This document shows, piece after piece, positions 20,308-27,410 of a stretch of 33,394 nt of DNA (positions within the stretch are counted from its first letter, which is position 1; the number at the start of each line of letters is the position of its first letter). Origin of the DNA: an uncultured Arenicella sp. (lineage in GTDB: Bacteria; Pseudomonadota; Gammaproteobacteria; Arenicellales; Arenicellaceae); contig CALKRK010000009.1 of NCBI GenBank assembly GCA_937989675.1, positions 1 to 33,394 of the forward strand, written 5' to 3'. Below the pieces are notes generated by a model. That model saw only the letters and a list, made by a program, of their open reading frames with translations, made no database searches and had not been told where the DNA came from. The position numbers and the translations under genes were made by a program.

Positions 20308-21624
20308 TTACCACCGACGCTCTAGCCGCTTTCGCAGCCAAACCGCCAAACTGTTCATGCAAATAAGAAAAGTTAGTAGCACCATGATCGCCGCGGATGT
20401 TTTCTCAACAAACGCACGCTCTGGGCTATCCGACCACAAAAATATTTGCACAGGCAATACAGTAGCAGGGTCGGTGATTCCTGTTGGCGTGTCAACAATG
20501 AATGCCACCATCCCTATCATCAATAAGGGCGCGGTCTCTCCAAGCGCCTGAGCCATGCCAATAATAGTGCCTGTTAACATGCCAGGCATCGCCAATGGAA
20601 GCACATGATGTATTACCGTTTGCACTTTAGAAGCCCCCATACCGTATGCGGCCTCGCGAATTGAAGGAGGCACCGCCTTAATCGCAGCGCGGCTTGAGAT
20701 AATAATAGTGGGCAAGGTCATAAGAGTTAGGACAAAGCCACCGACTAGCGGAACTGAACGCGGCATACCAAAGAAATTGATAAATACGGCCAAACCTAAT
20801 AATCCAAAAATAACCGACGGTACCGCCGCCAGATTGTTTATGTTGACTTCGATAAAGTCGGTAATCTTATTCTTCGGAGCAAACTCTTCGAGGTAGATCG
20901 CCGTTGCCACAGCAATCGGAAATGACAACACTAAGGTGACTAACAAGGTCAGTATAGACCCCACCACAGCTCCTCTAATGCCCGCTAATTCTGGTTCCCT
21001 AGAGTCGGAATTGGAAAACAGGATAGAGTTAAATTTGCGTTCAACAGCGCCGGACTCCACTAAGTCATCAACTATTCCTTCTTGGAACTCGTTCAATCGG
21101 CTAACTTTGTCTTCGGCGCTGAGATTTTTACCATAGCTGTGCTTGTAGTAAGTATCAAAGTCGTCGTCTGCGATCATTGAAACGGTCGTGGTCTGCCCTA
21201 TCAGTGATGGATCAGCGATCACCATATCGCGCAATATCAATGGCATATCGCTGGTGAACAGCGCATATAGCTGACGCTTCTGCCTACGATCACTTGCCTC
21301 AGGGTATTTAGCTCTTAATGATTTTTTAAAAAACGAACCAAAACTCGCTGCGCGAATCTCTTCTTCAGTACTCTGCGGGCTCAATCCAAGCGTATCAGCG
21401 TCGAAAGTGATCTCAACGTCCACATAGGTTTGAGTAAATGCGCTAGCCCCTTTACTGACAATATCGGTAAACAGGAATAATACGCAAGCGATACCAAAGC
21501 CGATTGAAATACGGCCGAACCATTGAAAGCGTTTTTCCGCCGCTTTGCGTTTCTTTAGCGTAGCCGCGCGACGCTCAGCCGCAACAACTCTAGCGTCAGA
21601 CTCGGCAATAATTTGATCAGTCAT
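20308..21624 (-). CDS. pstA: Phosphate ABC transporter permease PstA, long form
   Basis: The 438-residue protein is much longer than the E. coli permease (about 300). The additional part is an N-terminal cytoplasmic segment, one membrane helix (about 35-55) and a periplasmic region of about 150 residues. These correspond to the DUF3333 type of N-terminal domain found in many proteobacterial PstA proteins. The permease core follows, with a conserved coupling loop (AAYGMGASKVQTVIHHVLPLA) and GTIIGMAQALGETAPLL. I chose the ATG at 21624, which overlaps the pstC stop by 8 nt and has a GAGAA site; a start at 21666 would lie deep inside pstC. Confidence 0.95.
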   Translation of the reverse strand: MTDQIIAESDARVVAAERRAATLKKRKAAEKRFQWFGRISIGFGIACVLFLFTDIVSKGASAFTQTYVDVEITFDADTLGLSPQSTEEEIRAASFGSFFKKSLRAKYPEASDRRQKRQLYALFTSDMPLILRDMVIADPSLIGQTTTVSMIADDDFDTYYKHSYGKNLSAEDKVSRLNEFQEGIVDDLVESGAVERKFNSILFSNSDSREPELAGIRGAVVGSILTLLVTLVLSFPIAVATAIYLEEFAPKNKITDFIEVNINNLAAVPSVIFGLLGLAVFINFFGMPRSVPLVGGFVLTLMTLPTIIISSRAAIKAVPPSIREAAYGMGASKVQTVIHHVLPLAMPGMLTGTIIGMAQALGETAPLLMIGMVAFIVDTPTGITDPATVLPVQIFLWSDSPERAFVEKTSAAIMVLLTFLICMNSLAVWLRKRLERRW

Positions 21625-23044
21625 ATTGTTCTCTATATTTTTTAACAACCCGTAAAGCAATGACATTCAAAGCCAATGTAATAACAAAAAGAAAGAGGCC
21701 AAGCGCAAAAGCCGCAAGTGTTTTGGCAGAGTCAAATTCCTGATCACCAACCAGTAGGGTTACAATTTGAACGGTTACAGTAGTAACGGCTTCAAGTGGA
21801 TTCACCGTCAAATTAGCAGCCAAACCGGCAGCCATAACCACAATCATAGTTTCGCCGATAGCACGTGAAGCGGCCAACAATACACCACCAACAATACCTG
21901 GTAATGCAGCTGGAAAAATTACTCTCTTGATCGTTTCTGATTGCGTAGCTCCGAGCCCGTATGAGCCATCACGCAAACTCTGAGGCACGGCATTAATTAC
22001 ATCATCGGATATAGATGAGACGAACGGAATAATCATAACACCCATGACAATTCCTGCTGCGAGCGCGCTTTCGGAAGACACCGCCAGATTGGCTAACCAG
22101 GCTATTTCGTTCTCAGCCCCCCAATCGCGAAGTGCATCACCGTATTGCCTAATCGCAGGCGCCACGGTCAAAGCCGCAAAAAAACCATACACAACAGTTG
22201 GAACCCCAGCCAAAATCTCCAACGCTGGCTTAACAAAGCCGCGAATACGCGCACTGGCATACTCCGACAAATAAATGGCTGACATTAAGCCAACTGGCAC
22301 CGCAATCAACAACGCAATAAAAGATATCAGCAAGGTGCCCACGATTAGAGGGATAACGCCAAACGACCCAGAGGCACCAGTTTGATCTGCTCTTATGGCA
22401 ATCTGAGGGCTCCAATGCGTGCCGAGCAAGAAATCAAAGAACGGTACCTTTTGGAAGAAACTAATCGACTCAAACAAAACTGAGAGGACAATGCCGAATG
22501 TCGAAAAAATAGCGATACTTGAACACACAAAAAGCGTTACATTAAACACTTTTTCCACAGAATAACGTGCATTATTCTGTGGCCGAACCGCGCGATATCC
22601 TAGTAGCCCGCCGATCAATAACACAAAGATCGCCAATACCGGCATAACTTTAGCACTGATCGTGTTTAAGCTTATTAAGCGCTGCACAGCGGGCACATAC
22701 TCTTGACCCAGCGCATCAACCGAACCAATACCTGAAGCTACGTTTTTAACCTGACTCATCACTAAGCCTAGGCTTTCCTCGCTGAGCTGCTTGACCTCAT
22801 CAGGAAGCGAACTCTTTACCAAAGAAGAGATAACCGCCCCATCCAATACTGACCATAAAACAACCAACACCATCGCTGGTACAAACGCCCAAATACCAAC
22901 CATACTGGCGTAGTAATTCGGTAATGTCGCTAAATTACGCACACCGCCTAGCGGCTTAGCGATTTGCTGAGACCTTGTGTAGCCTAGAAAATAGGCACAA
23001 GCTGACCCAGCAACAATAATTATTAAAAGAGTAGAAAGGTTCAT
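21617..23044 (-). CDS. pstC: Phosphate ABC transporter permease PstC, long form
   Basis: The 475-residue permease is longer than E. coli PstC (about 320). The extension contains membrane helices at about 4-22 and 50-72 and a periplasmic stretch (about 73-135) before the usual core. Core features are present: a permease loop (YGLGATQSETIKRVIFPAALPGI) and the following GGVLLAASRAIGETMIVVMAAG. With PstA it forms the membrane channel for phosphate delivered by PstS. The gene has its own Pho-box promoter and lies beyond a strong terminator after pstS. Confidence 0.95.
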   Translation of the reverse strand: MNLSTLLIIIVAGSACAYFLGYTRSQQIAKPLGGVRNLATLPNYYASMVGIWAFVPAMVLVVLWSVLDGAVISSLVKSSLPDEVKQLSEESLGLVMSQVKNVASGIGSVDALGQEYVPAVQRLISLNTISAKVMPVLAIFVLLIGGLLGYRAVRPQNNARYSVEKVFNVTLFVCSSIAIFSTFGIVLSVLFESISFFQKVPFFDFLLGTHWSPQIAIRADQTGASGSFGVIPLIVGTLLISFIALLIAVPVGLMSAIYLSEYASARIRGFVKPALEILAGVPTVVYGFFAALTVAPAIRQYGDALRDWGAENEIAWLANLAVSSESALAAGIVMGVMIIPFVSSISDDVINAVPQSLRDGSYGLGATQSETIKRVIFPAALPGIVGGVLLAASRAIGETMIVVMAAGLAANLTVNPLEAVTTVTVQIVTLLVGDQEFDSAKTLAAFALGLFLFVITLALNVIALRVVKKYREQYD

Positions 23045-23096
23045 GTTAATAATATTTACCCAACAATTGATAGTAACCCGATAATCAGTTCAACAA

Positions 23097-23130
23097 ATTG
23101 TATAAAAGCCACTTTACAGATTCGTGTCAG
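23097..23130 (-). promoter_or_regulatory. pstC promoter with Pho box
   Basis: On the minus strand CTGACAC-GAAT-CTGTAAA (23113-23130) fits the 7-4-7 Pho box. It is followed by exactly 10 nt and TACAAT (23097-23102), one mismatch from the -10 consensus. This is the same geometry as at phoB and pstS. It gives pstCAB-phoU an independent phosphate-starvation promoter about 50 nt upstream of the pstC start. Confidence 0.7.
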
Positions 23131-23183
23131 CGGCAAAAAACTAAGCCTGCAATAATACCTGAAACTAACACAAGAATTTGCTG

Positions 23184-23218
23184 AAAAAATGGCGGGTGAG
23201 TTATACAACTCACCCGCC
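23184..23218 (-). terminator. Strong rho-independent terminator after pstS
   Basis: A perfect 12-bp GC-rich stem (GGCGGGTGAGTT / AACTCACCCGCC) has a 4-nt loop and is followed on the minus strand by ATTTTTTC. It lies about 90 nt past the pstS stop and upstream of the pstC Pho box. It should end most pstS transcripts. Confidence 0.93.
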
Positions 23219-23307
23219 ACAGAGAATATCGTTTGCTAGCCGAATCTTATCGGCGGCTAACAGCGCCTATTCAAGAGAAGGATTTATATCTCACAAACTA
23301 GCCAAAC

Positions 23308-24438
23308 TTACAGCGCTAGATTGTTAAGTGCTTTTGCACCAGAAGACATCTCTTCGTACTGCTCGTCGCCTAGCGGAATCAAACCCTTATCGATAAGGTA
23401 GCCATCTGGGCCGATTGTGTCTTCTGAAACAAACATGTTCAGATATTCTTCAATACCAGGAACAGTGCCAATGTGTGCTTTCTTAACATAAAAATACAGT
23501 GGTCGGCTCACCTTATATTCACCAGTGGAGATCGCTTCGAAAGTAGGCGCGTTGCCATCAATGACAGAACCTTGAACTTTATCTGAGTTCTGATCCAGGA
23601 AACTGAAACCGAAAATACCCAAGGCGTTTGGATTAGCAACCAATTTATTAACAATCAGATTGTCGTTCTCACCCGCTTCAATGTAAGCGCCATCTTCACG
23701 AACTGAGCGGCCGATGATTTTAACAACATCTTTGCCCTTGGCTTTTTCGCCTTTCTTTTTGACCGCGGCGGTCCAAGCAGCTTCAACACCTAGCTTTGCA
23801 ACCATGGCTTCGATCTCGCCTTTTTGATCAGCTTTCATTTTGCGGAGCTTGGCGATGTCTTCTACCTGTCTAGCACCACCCTCAAGAGCCAACTCAGCAA
23901 ACGCGTCACGCGTGCCCGATGTTGGTGGAGGGCCTAACACTTCAATTTTGGTCGCTGGCAAGGCAGCGTTAACGTCTTTCCAAGTTTTGTTAGGATTCTC
24001 GATCAATTTGCCATCTGGGCCTGGTACTAATTTAGCCAAAGCCATGTAAATGTCTTTGCGCGTTAGCTCCATTGGCGCAGCACCTTTCGCGTTTGCCAAA
24101 ACGATGCCGTCATAACCAATCAAGACTTCAACGATTTCCTTCACACCATTTTTCTGGCATTGTTCGAACTCGCTCGATTTAATACGGCGCGAAGCATTAG
24201 TAACGTCAGGAGTCGCAACACCAACGCCTTTACAAAACAACTTTAACCCGCCGCCGGAACCGGTTGATTCCACTTTCGGTGAGTTGAATTTTGTTGATTT
24301 ACCAAAACGCTCGGCTACAACCGTCGCAAATGGATATACAGTTGATGAGCCAACGACACTGATCGAATCACGCGCCGCCGCTGTTGAAATATTAAAAGTC
24401 GCCGCAGCCGCAATAAGACCAAGAGCTAGATTTTTCAC
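23308..24438 (-). CDS. pstS: Phosphate-binding periplasmic protein PstS
   Basis: The 376-residue protein has a signal peptide with predicted cleavage after TAAA (residue 22). The phosphate-binding fold follows, beginning ISVVGSSTVYPFATVVAERFG, with the ligand-loop motifs ESTGSGGGLKLFCKG and GPPPTSGTRDAFAELAL. It delivers phosphate to PstCAB. Translation starts at a GTG (24436-24438) with a GGAG site 9 nt upstream. The gene is monocistronic in layout: Pho-box promoter before, strong terminator after. The mature protein is rich in lysine around residues 205-240. No anomaly is seen. Confidence 0.95.
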   Translation of the reverse strand: MKNLALGLIAAAATFNISTAAARDSISVVGSSTVYPFATVVAERFGKSTKFNSPKVESTGSGGGLKLFCKGVGVATPDVTNASRRIKSSEFEQCQKNGVKEIVEVLIGYDGIVLANAKGAAPMELTRKDIYMALAKLVPGPDGKLIENPNKTWKDVNAALPATKIEVLGPPPTSGTRDAFAELALEGGARQVEDIAKLRKMKADQKGEIEAMVAKLGVEAAWTAAVKKKGEKAKGKDVVKIIGRSVREDGAYIEAGENDNLIVNKLVANPNALGIFGFSFLDQNSDKVQGSVIDGNAPTFEAISTGEYKVSRPLYFYVKKAHIGTVPGIEEYLNMFVSEDTIGPDGYLIDKGLIPLGDEQYEEMSSGAKALNNLAL

Positions 24439-25326: not shown

Positions 25327-25650
25327 TTATGAAGACTTTTCTTCGTCAACTTTTGATTCTTGCACCAAAACGAAAGGCGCAACGACCACACTCCATAATT
25401 CAGCGCTCGTAGCAAACCAAGCTCTCGCCTTATCATTGGATGGCGGAGCAATGCTTCCAGAGGTAATGTAAGGCTCAAGCTTATTCGAATCATCTTCAGC
25501 AAACCAAACAGCAACTTGAACCAAATCTAAGTCTTCATCAATTTGTAATACCGAACCCTGCGCGAAAAACCGTTGCAACTCCGACCACGCTATTTTAGCA
25601 GTCTCGCTATGCAGCTTAGCTTTTAACTCTGTGTCGATTTCCTGCTCCAT
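25327..25650 (-). CDS. DUF2288 family protein
   Basis: This 107-residue soluble protein matches DUF2288 throughout: the N-terminal ELKAKLHSETAKIAWSELQRFFAQG, a middle DLDLVQVAVWFAEDDS, PPSNDKARAWF and a final LWSVVVAPFVLVQE. The function of the family is not known to me. I chose the ATG at 25650, where homology begins, with an AGAAAG site upstream. A GTG at 25695 would add 15 residues without family support. It is followed by nfsA on the same strand. Confidence 0.88.
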   Translation of the reverse strand: MEQEIDTELKAKLHSETAKIAWSELQRFFAQGSVLQIDEDLDLVQVAVWFAEDDSNKLEPYITSGSIAPPSNDKARAWFATSAELWSVVVAPFVLVQESKVDEEKSS

Positions 25651-25713
25651 TAACTTTCTACCTTCGCTAGCCGCACTCGTAAAATTAAAATTCACTTGAT
25701 AGTACTAAATACA

Positions 25714-25748
25714 ATAAAATAAAGCCCCACCGATTACTCGATGGAGCT
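25714..25748 (-). terminator. Rho-independent terminator of the acidic lipoprotein gene
   Basis: An 11-bp stem with a 4-nt loop (25723-25748), containing two U-G wobbles on the minus-strand RNA, is followed by the U-rich tract TTATTTTA. It lies 25 nt after the stop of the Ala-rich lipoprotein and separates it from the DUF2288-nfsA unit. Confidence 0.82.
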
Positions 25749-25773
25749 CTATTCATAAAACTATGCAGCCGAT

Positions 25774-26373
25774 TTATTCGTTAGCTGCTTTCTCAGCTTC
25801 CTCGACAACTTCTTCTGCGCTTTCAGCGGCACTGTCGACAGCACCTTCAACCGCATCAGCCGCGTCACTAGCCATTTCAGCCGCGCCATCTACCGCGTCG
25901 CTTGCCATTTCAGAAGCACCGTCAGCAACATCGCTCGCAGCATCCGAGATCGCTTCACCAGCATCGCTCGCCATTTCAGCCGCACCATCTACCGCATCGC
26001 TTGCCATTTCAGAAGCGCCATCAGCAACATCACTCGCTGTCTCTGAGATCGCTTCACCTGCATCACTGGCCATTTCAGCTGCGCCATCTACCGCGTCACC
26101 TGCGGCATCAACAACGGCATCACCAGCATCCTTAGCCATATCGCCCGCTGCGTCTACCGCGTCACCAGCGGCATCCATTGCTGAGTCAGCGCCATCAGCA
26201 ACCGCATCAGTCGCAGAATCAACGGCGTTGGCTGTCGCATCAACTGCATCAGACGCCGCTTCTTTAGTAGCATCAATAGCATTACTAATAGCTGAATCCT
26301 CTTTTTGGTTATCACAAGCAGCTACGCTTAAAGCAATTGCTATAGCAATCGCGGATTTGTTCAGTAGTTTCAT
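25774..26373 (-). CDS. Acidic Ala-rich lipoprotein made of 11-residue repeats
   Basis: The 199-residue product has a signal segment and lipobox VAAC (Cys20; Asp at +2 may favour the inner membrane). Residues 34-198 form 15 consecutive 11-residue units with no insertion or deletion. The rough pattern is [DE]xAx[DE]Ax[DE]xAx. Position 1 is acidic in 14 of 15 units, position 5 in 13 and position 8 in 13. On an 11/3 helix these positions fall within about 33 degrees of each other, giving one acidic stripe and an opposite Ala/Val/Ile/Met face. Such hendecads occur in LEA group 3, synuclein and apolipoprotein-like helices. A strong AGGAGA site precedes the ATG. The function is unknown; a long helical envelope spacer or coiled-coil is an inference. 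Confidence 0.85.
   Translation of the reverse strand: MKLLNKSAIAIAIALSVAACDNQKEDSAISNAIDATKEAASDAVDATANAVDSATDAVADGADSAMDAAGDAVDAAGDMAKDAGDAVVDAAGDAVDGAAEMASDAGEAISETASDVADGASEMASDAVDGAAEMASDAGEAISDAASDVADGASEMASDAVDGAAEMASDAADAVEGAVDSAAESAEEVVEEAEKAANE
25871..26110 (-). repeat. 99-nt in-frame tandem repeat, about 2.4 copies
   Basis: Near-identical units start at 25871, 25970 and 26069 (each with GCCATTTCAG on the plus strand), a period of exactly 99 nt, or three 11-residue units. Copies differ mainly at third codon positions. The third copy is partial. It looks like recent internal duplication within the acidic lipoprotein gene and may vary in copy number. Confidence 0.85.
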
Positions 26374-26786
26374 GGTGTCTCCTGACCTGTATTAAGGGTT
26401 TATCAGATATTATTGTTAGTCATGGCAACCAATTTCTGGGCCAATTATTTTGTCTAGTTTGTATTCTGGAAGAAATCAAAATTAAGCCAGAATAGCAATA
26501 ATGCCACAATCGGCACCGACGACATTATACCTCAGCGCAACATCTATACCAGACTCTTTGGTTTAGAGTTCATTTTGTCCAAAATCACGCATTATTTATT
26601 TATGGCCATCTTATTGATTAACAGTCGACTTTGTAGTAAAAATGCGTGCTGAAAAAATTTTGCACACTCTAGAATTAACCGCCTTCCATGACAAGACATT
26701 TTTAACAGGGCAAAAGCTGAGAAGTAATATCCACACTTCAATGCTTACTCAAGGCCCACCATGTCACTTAACCGAGACAATGAACC
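26374..26786. other. Divergent intergenic region, acidic lipoprotein / dksA
   Basis: No convincing gene is seen in these 413 nt. It must hold the promoters of both neighbours. The lipoprotein's ribosome-binding site (AGGAGA) is at its left end. An inverted repeat with 8-bp arms (TATTCTGG at 26462-26469, CCAGAATA at 26487-26494; 17-nt gap) could be an operator. A 55-codon reading frame from 26642 overlaps the dksA start and has no family features. Confidence 0.4.
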
Positions 26787-27410
26787 ATGGCCACAAAGAA
26801 AAAAATCACTAAAAAGACAACAAAAACAGCGGCTAAGAAGACTAGCGATGCTGCTAAAGTGGTCAAGGCCAAGACGAAAGTCACCAAGAAGTCGGCGAAG
26901 AAAACAACCTCTGCAAGTAAACCTAGTAAGAAGAAATCAAGTAGTAAAAAAGTGACTATAAAGAATAACAAAGCCGCCTCAGCGGCACATGATAACGACA
27001 ATTTGATTCACGGTATCGAGCCCTACAAAGAGAAAGCCCGTGAAAAATATATGAACCCAAAGCAGGTTGAGCATTTTCGTAATATTCTTCTGGCATGGAA
27101 AACTAACCTTCTTGATGAGGTTTCTCGCACCATCAATTTAATGCAGGATGAAAATATCAATCACCCGGATCCAAATGACCGGGCTAGCCAAGAAACCGAT
27201 ATGTCTTTGGAATTGCGCAATCGAGATCGAGAACGTAAGTTACTTAAGAAAATTGATCAAACAATTTTACGAGTTGACAACCAGGATTACGGCTGGTGTG
27301 ACCGCTGCGGTATTGAGATTGGTATTCGACGGCTCGAGGCCCGCCCTACAGCGGAGCTGTGTGTGGATTGCAAAACACTTAGTGAAATCAAAGAACGACA
27401 AATGATCTAA
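26787..27410 (+). CDS. dksA: RNA polymerase-binding transcription factor DksA with Lys-rich N-terminal tail
   Basis: The 207-residue protein is a full DksA from about residue 75: helical N-terminus, coiled-coil and a C4 zinc finger (Cys171, Cys174, Cys192, Cys195). The coiled-coil tip carries the DxxDxA motif (DPNDRA, 128-133) needed to act with ppGpp on RNA polymerase. E. coli DksA is 151 residues. Here an additional tail of about 65 residues holds about 24 lysines and a single acidic residue in the first 62, with KK(T/S)-type repeats like histone H1 or AlgP tails. The tail could bind DNA or RNA, which is inference. A solid bidirectional terminator follows, shared with the convergent surA. 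Confidence 0.93.
   Translation: MATKKKITKKTTKTAAKKTSDAAKVVKAKTKVTKKSAKKTTSASKPSKKKSSSKKVTIKNNKAASAAHDNDNLIHGIEPYKEKAREKYMNPKQVEHFRNILLAWKTNLLDEVSRTINLMQDENINHPDPNDRASQETDMSLELRNRDRERKLLKKIDQTILRVDNQDYGWCDRCGIEIGIRRLEARPTAELCVDCKTLSEIKERQMI

Follow-up and report, generated by a model that had tools for sequence, protein, structure and literature searches.

What might a lipoprotein do when it consists largely of one short, acidic, alanine-rich unit repeated again and again? The question is raised by a gene in a 33,394-nucleotide stretch of an uncultured Arenicella sp. (contig CALKRK010000009.1), the whole of which we refer to as the window. The source genome is a draft of 3.58 Mb that is 80% complete. 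The encoded protein has no recognised domain and no terminal domain, and its N-terminus is hydrophobic and carries LSVAAC at residues 15-20, in agreement with the bacterial lipoprotein pattern ([LVI][ASTVI][GAS]C). The coordinates of the gene and of the features around it are given in Table 1. The gene is real: most differences between its internal 33-mers are synonymous, and among 100 relatives searched, orthologs turned up in 16 of the 17 other genomes of the genus. A plus-strand ORF (25763-26395) was rejected as a gene. Synonymous shuffles yield antisense frames that are equally long, so a frame of this length is an expected by-product of the codon make-up.

Table 1. Features at the lipoprotein locus (window coordinates).
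Feature	Position	Strand	Basis
Lipoprotein gene, 199 aa	25774..26373	-	ATG start and TAA stop; orthologs with conserved neighbours
Signal peptide and lipobox LSVAAC, ending at Cys20; Asp at +2	26314..26373	-	Sequence
Membrane-proximal segment, residues 26-55 (DSAISNAIDATKEAASDAVDATANAVDSAT), conserved	26209..26298	-	Ortholog alignment
Fifteen 11-residue units, residues 34-198; acidic at positions 1, 5 and 8	25780..26274	-	Column counts and shuffles
99-bp (3 x 33-bp) tandem DNA repeat in the tract, 2.4 copies, 87% identity	25865..26097	-	DNA repeat detection
Probable ribosome-binding site AGGAGA	26378..26383	-	Read from sequence
Terminator-like hairpin 3′ of the lipoprotein gene	25717..25754	-	Consensus match only
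DUF2288 protein (PF10052), conserved downstream neighbour	25327..25695	-	Profile match and ortholog loci
dksA, conserved divergent neighbour	26787..27410	+	Profile match and ortholog loci

The original prediction described an unbroken run of fifteen 11-mers with three acidic positions, and both points are borne out in the minus-strand protein, where the three positions are acidic in 14, 13 and 13 of the 15 units. These columns, the best three, hold 40 of the 46 acidic residues (mean of 18.5 and maximum of 26 in 100,000 composition shuffles), and the acidic spectrum peaks at 3.66 residues with a power of 8.0 (shuffle maximum of 2.1). Units 14-15 (residues 177-198) fit imperfectly and have G, S and K at key positions. 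A narrow acidic face had been predicted to run over 165 residues. Such a stripe runs straight only if the helix has about 3.667 residues per turn; at 3.6 the drift would reach about 300 degrees over the same length. The apolar side (positions 2, 3, 6, 7 and 10), predicted to be an Ala/Val/Ile face opposite the acid, is mostly Ala with Val and Ile, and includes Met as well. Like-charge acidic pairs number 29 at i,i+4 (12.5 expected) and 16 at i,i+3, so the stripe should weaken an isolated helix, which may need salt, cations or a partner. The tandem repeat in the DNA, at its level of identity, indicates that part of the regularity is recent duplication. Its copies diverge mainly at synonymous sites (dS 0.78-1.08, dN 0.04-0.09), and dN is also lower than dS in the proximal region of orthologs (by a small gap in the comparison with L006), all of these figures coming from short stretches of biased composition.

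Every same-genus locus that was recovered adjoins dksA and/or the DUF2288 gene, as far as the contigs extend. The sole genome of the genus with no match (G017) has no DUF2288 match either, which fits an assembly gap. The orthologs span 118 to 257 aa. Residues 26-55 are near-identical among them (A32, A35, T36, K37, A39 and A40 are invariant in full-length orthologs); the segment SAISNAIDATKEAASDAVDAT is nearly invariant, and the remainder is variable. So highly conserved a membrane-proximal segment suggests a specific contact, which a pure spacer would not need. Of 16 orthologs compared, 14 retain the lipobox Cys (the exceptions are L021 and L018). Residue +2 is Asp in this protein and Gly or Ser in most orthologs, and the hints that it gives for sorting to the inner or outer membrane conflict. 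The anchor is replaceable, being a lipid in most orthologs and, in L021/L047, a transmembrane segment that takes the place of the lipobox. In L018/L042 the N-terminal part comes from an unrelated frame and has no lipobox, which may reflect a frameshift in an assembly of low coverage. The near-lack of basic residues first noted for this protein is not a family feature, as the tract contains 1 to 17 K/R across orthologs and 11-17 in several. Another genus of the family encodes a shorter relative of 60 residues that adjoins dksA (L023). One further lipoprotein (L025, in G018) has the conserved AIESTKEA motif and then, where the repeats would be, a stretch rich in Pro and Ser. A match in the same genome (C196) was rejected as a paralogue: it falls in a 165-aa phasin-like protein that by reading has no signal peptide and is not a lipoprotein.

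Upstream alignments gave no convincing common promoter as a shared regulatory motif. The neighbouring DksA (207 aa) has an N-terminal tail of about 70 residues that is rich in Lys and resembles histone H1; the DksA in L043 (208 aa) has a similar tail, and that in L023 (142 aa) has none. The window also encodes minus-strand phosphate transport genes at 20308-24438 (PstS-like, PstC and PstA).

The 11-residue phase, taken literally, is broken in homologues. Identical 5-mers recur within the orthologs at spacings of 18, 29, 40 and 51 beside 11, 22 and 33, with multiples of 11 making up 30%; the orthologs mix 7- and 11-residue steps and do not form a strict hendecad-repeat family. Of 115 ortholog/spacing combinations (each counted once), 83% fall within 45 degrees of phase for a helix of 3.64 residues per turn, compared with 6% after a one-residue shift, a contrast whose size is somewhat flattered because the period was picked after the data had been seen. 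The in-phase share is 77% at a period of 3.667, 52% at 3.6 and 13% at 3.5; repeats inherited within a lineage are not independent, and neither this nor the choice of period affects the direction of the result. In each of the 16 sequences both the hydrophobic and the acidic peak fall at 3.62-3.67. Because the steps stay in register with a helix of about 3.64 residues per turn, the helical stripe remains continuous despite the mixed spacings. From the original prediction of an amphipathic 11-mer helix on a lipoprotein, the helix is well supported and the fixed 11-residue phase in homologues is lost. Conservation of helical phase under changing length is the stronger claim, and we put it in place of the strict hendecad.

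Structure prediction agrees on helix. AlphaFold2 with a 13-sequence ortholog alignment gave an all-helical model of low confidence (pLDDT 56, pTM 0.32), and from the single sequence it gave helices at 25-105 and 107-198 with pLDDT of about 70-81 outside the N-terminal 30 residues; both models are silent on oligomers. Foldseek gave nothing better than E 1.6 for the alignment-based model, which was set aside on this account and for its low confidence, and the single match in a PDB sequence search (E 0.54) was ignored. A HeliQuest-type discriminant has a mean of -1.2 and a maximum of -0.6 for this protein, and the mean is negative in 15 of 15 orthologs scored. Such a score is calibrated for anionic membranes and leaves room for other surfaces. 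The score is an indirect gauge of an apolipoprotein- or synuclein-like membrane binder; simple membrane-surface binding, as had been suggested, is disfavoured by charge given so strongly negative a value.

Searches of Pfam and NCBIfam returned only matches below the curated cut-offs, and no curated family covers the lipoprotein (Phasin_2, for example, reaches 20.3 bits against a cut-off of 24.9). The likeness to LEA3 proteins and apolipoproteins that had been proposed is not recovered at the level of families: LEA_4 (PF02987) has no match to this protein at E<=1, and Apolipoprotein (PF01442) scores 22 bits against a cut-off of 90. LEA group 3 (LEA_4) proteins share the 11-residue amphipathic repeats; they have a Lys/Glu balance, whereas the Arenicella protein is lipid-anchored, exported and acidic. 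The Apolipoprotein A1/A4/E domain is likewise a set of amphipathic helices built on 11-mers, and the Arenicella protein differs from it in its strongly negative net charge and Ala-dominated apolar face.

The nearest known proteins are the Ag473-like lipoproteins. This protein falls outside the Ag473 family (NF047840; 24.3 bits against a cut-off of 100), which weakly matches 11 of 13 Arenicella orthologs (best E 1.2e-9). Ag473 (Neisseria meningitidis NMB1468) is also a small, lipidated, alanine-rich, tandem-repeat protein without aromatics. It is described as having 7-residue tandem repeats and a mass of about 10 kDa (PMC3402496), whereas the Arenicella tract is longer and built on a unit of 11 residues (orthologs mix 7 and 11). 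Rv1893 matches 6 of 13 orthologs, with a best E of about 1e-9. Matches to tape-measure proteins in PHROGs were judged to be compositional, as the surrounding genes are ordinary chromosomal ones (dksA, surA, lptD and pst). Our literature search found no paper on lipoproteins of this kind.

Outside the genus, an alignment that includes the signal region matched 23 of 274 genomes of the class, and a signal-free alignment matched 34 of 397 genomes of the phylum. Most of the 27 usable signal-free matches follow an export signal: they include 11 lipoproteins, 7 proteins with N-terminal transmembrane anchors, 4 with other signal peptides and 5 that are apparently cytosolic, classes that were counted by hand from open frames read by eye, with no matched background. 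Besides these, L124 and L127 resemble GC-rich or out-of-frame reads. In a period test, each of fifteen chosen tracts has its peak at 3.63-3.69, in 14 of them a higher one than in any shuffle; matches with biased composition are no proof of common descent. Among the class matches the tract joins a lipid anchor to cytochrome c (L066 and L071) or to a BON domain (L069). These fusions point to a spacer by similarity of kind, with homology unproven. In one same-genus pair, L066 (G301) and L130 (G174), the cytochrome aligns closely and the tract has one gap of 11 residues and one of 22, the look that would be expected of an arm that changes length by whole helical units. Outside the class of the window, six proteins (L099, L102, L103, L108, L114 and L120) are anchored by an N-terminal transmembrane segment and contain an Ala/Asp/Glu helical tract of great length, to which L120 adds a short C-terminal domain.

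Several explanations could account for such a protein. Braun's lipoprotein Lpp (PF04728) is a lipoprotein made of a single long helix with small apolar core residues, and similar mechanics may be imagined here: alanine-rich chains would pack via the Ala strip into a coiled coil or bundle that makes the envelope stiffer or ties the outer membrane to peptidoglycan. The apolar positions are compatible with a hendecad core (they fit the a/d/e/h positions of a right-handed coiled coil), and no PF04728 match was found in the 80%-complete genome, a search that was positive in only 1 of 14 control genomes. We nevertheless regard this structural role as unlikely. The Arenicella protein is hendecad and far longer than the heptad Lpp, and a ruler would not differ in length by more than twofold inside one genus, as this protein does. 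The C-terminal Lys used for peptidoglycan linkage is present in 0 of 16 orthologs compared, and the mean period of 3.64 is closer to a straight than to a supercoiled helix. Rather improbable, too, is a protectant of the LEA3/apolipoprotein type, acting at membrane surfaces or under stress, that would be disordered while in solution and fold into an 11/3 helix on membranes or on drying. Acidic repulsion is consistent with disorder until screened, the periodicity is of the right kind, similarity to Apolipoprotein and Phasin_2 is weakly present, and one gammaproteobacterial lipoprotein among the relatives (L054) shows a likeness to LEA_4 that stays below the cut-off (E 8e-10). Against it stand the family scores for this protein, its negative HeliQuest-type score and a hydrophobic face that is mostly Ala.

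The excess of i,i+4 acidic pairs, the strong net negative charge and the marine-type genus may instead suggest a periplasmic polyacidic buffer in which Asp/Glu pairs bind seawater Ca2+/Mg2+ and the chain is helical only when bound. Any acidic stripe gives such pairing, a known metal motif is absent, and the many Lys in the tract of several orthologs dilute the polyanion; we hold this idea to be improbable. The tandem duplication and the widely varying length would also be expected of a neutral low-complexity expansion that is merely tolerated, for which we see very little likelihood, given that dN falls far short of dS when repeats, and most orthologs, are compared, that helical phase is maintained through the length changes and that the gene neighbourhood is conserved.

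The best-supported mechanism, to which we give slightly less than an even chance, is a membrane-anchored, periplasm-facing helical stalk of tolerated length. The lipoprotein would be exported, lipidated at Cys20 and anchored in a membrane. Residues 25-198 would make up an alpha-helix with hardly a break, which if straight would measure up to about 25 nm, its acidic stripe facing one way and an Ala/Val/Met/Ile strip the other. It would act mechanically, as a length-tolerant spacer or brush that separates surfaces or partners, or one that holds a partner, and it would probably self-associate through the small-residue strip. The features that lead to this stalk, all shown by sequence, are the lipobox, helical periodicity, purifying selection, conserved position, phase-keeping length variation and the far-end domains on related tracts. 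From them we infer a helix in vivo, its self-association, its periplasmic side and the spacer or brush role of the domain-free version. That the lengths of relatives change only in steps that realign the faces suggests a rod-like envelope spacer, not an enzyme. Among the three functions first offered, it is the periplasmic spacer that fares best, with helical phase kept in homologues where the 11-residue phase is not.

More tentatively, Proteobacteria may commonly use a module that no curated family describes: an acidic helix, anchored in the envelope, that grows or shrinks in evolution by phase-preserving units of 7 and 11 residues and occurs free or as an adjustable arm for domains such as cytochrome c or BON; the selected property would then be a helical phase of about 3.64 residues per turn and not the sequence or length of the repeat. 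If this is right, envelope helices of this class are widespread and go without a name in annotation pipelines. The orthologs of differing length at one locus, together with cytochrome arms that differ by whole 11-residue units, would also provide a natural length series for testing directly how the length of a tether or brush matters in the periplasm.
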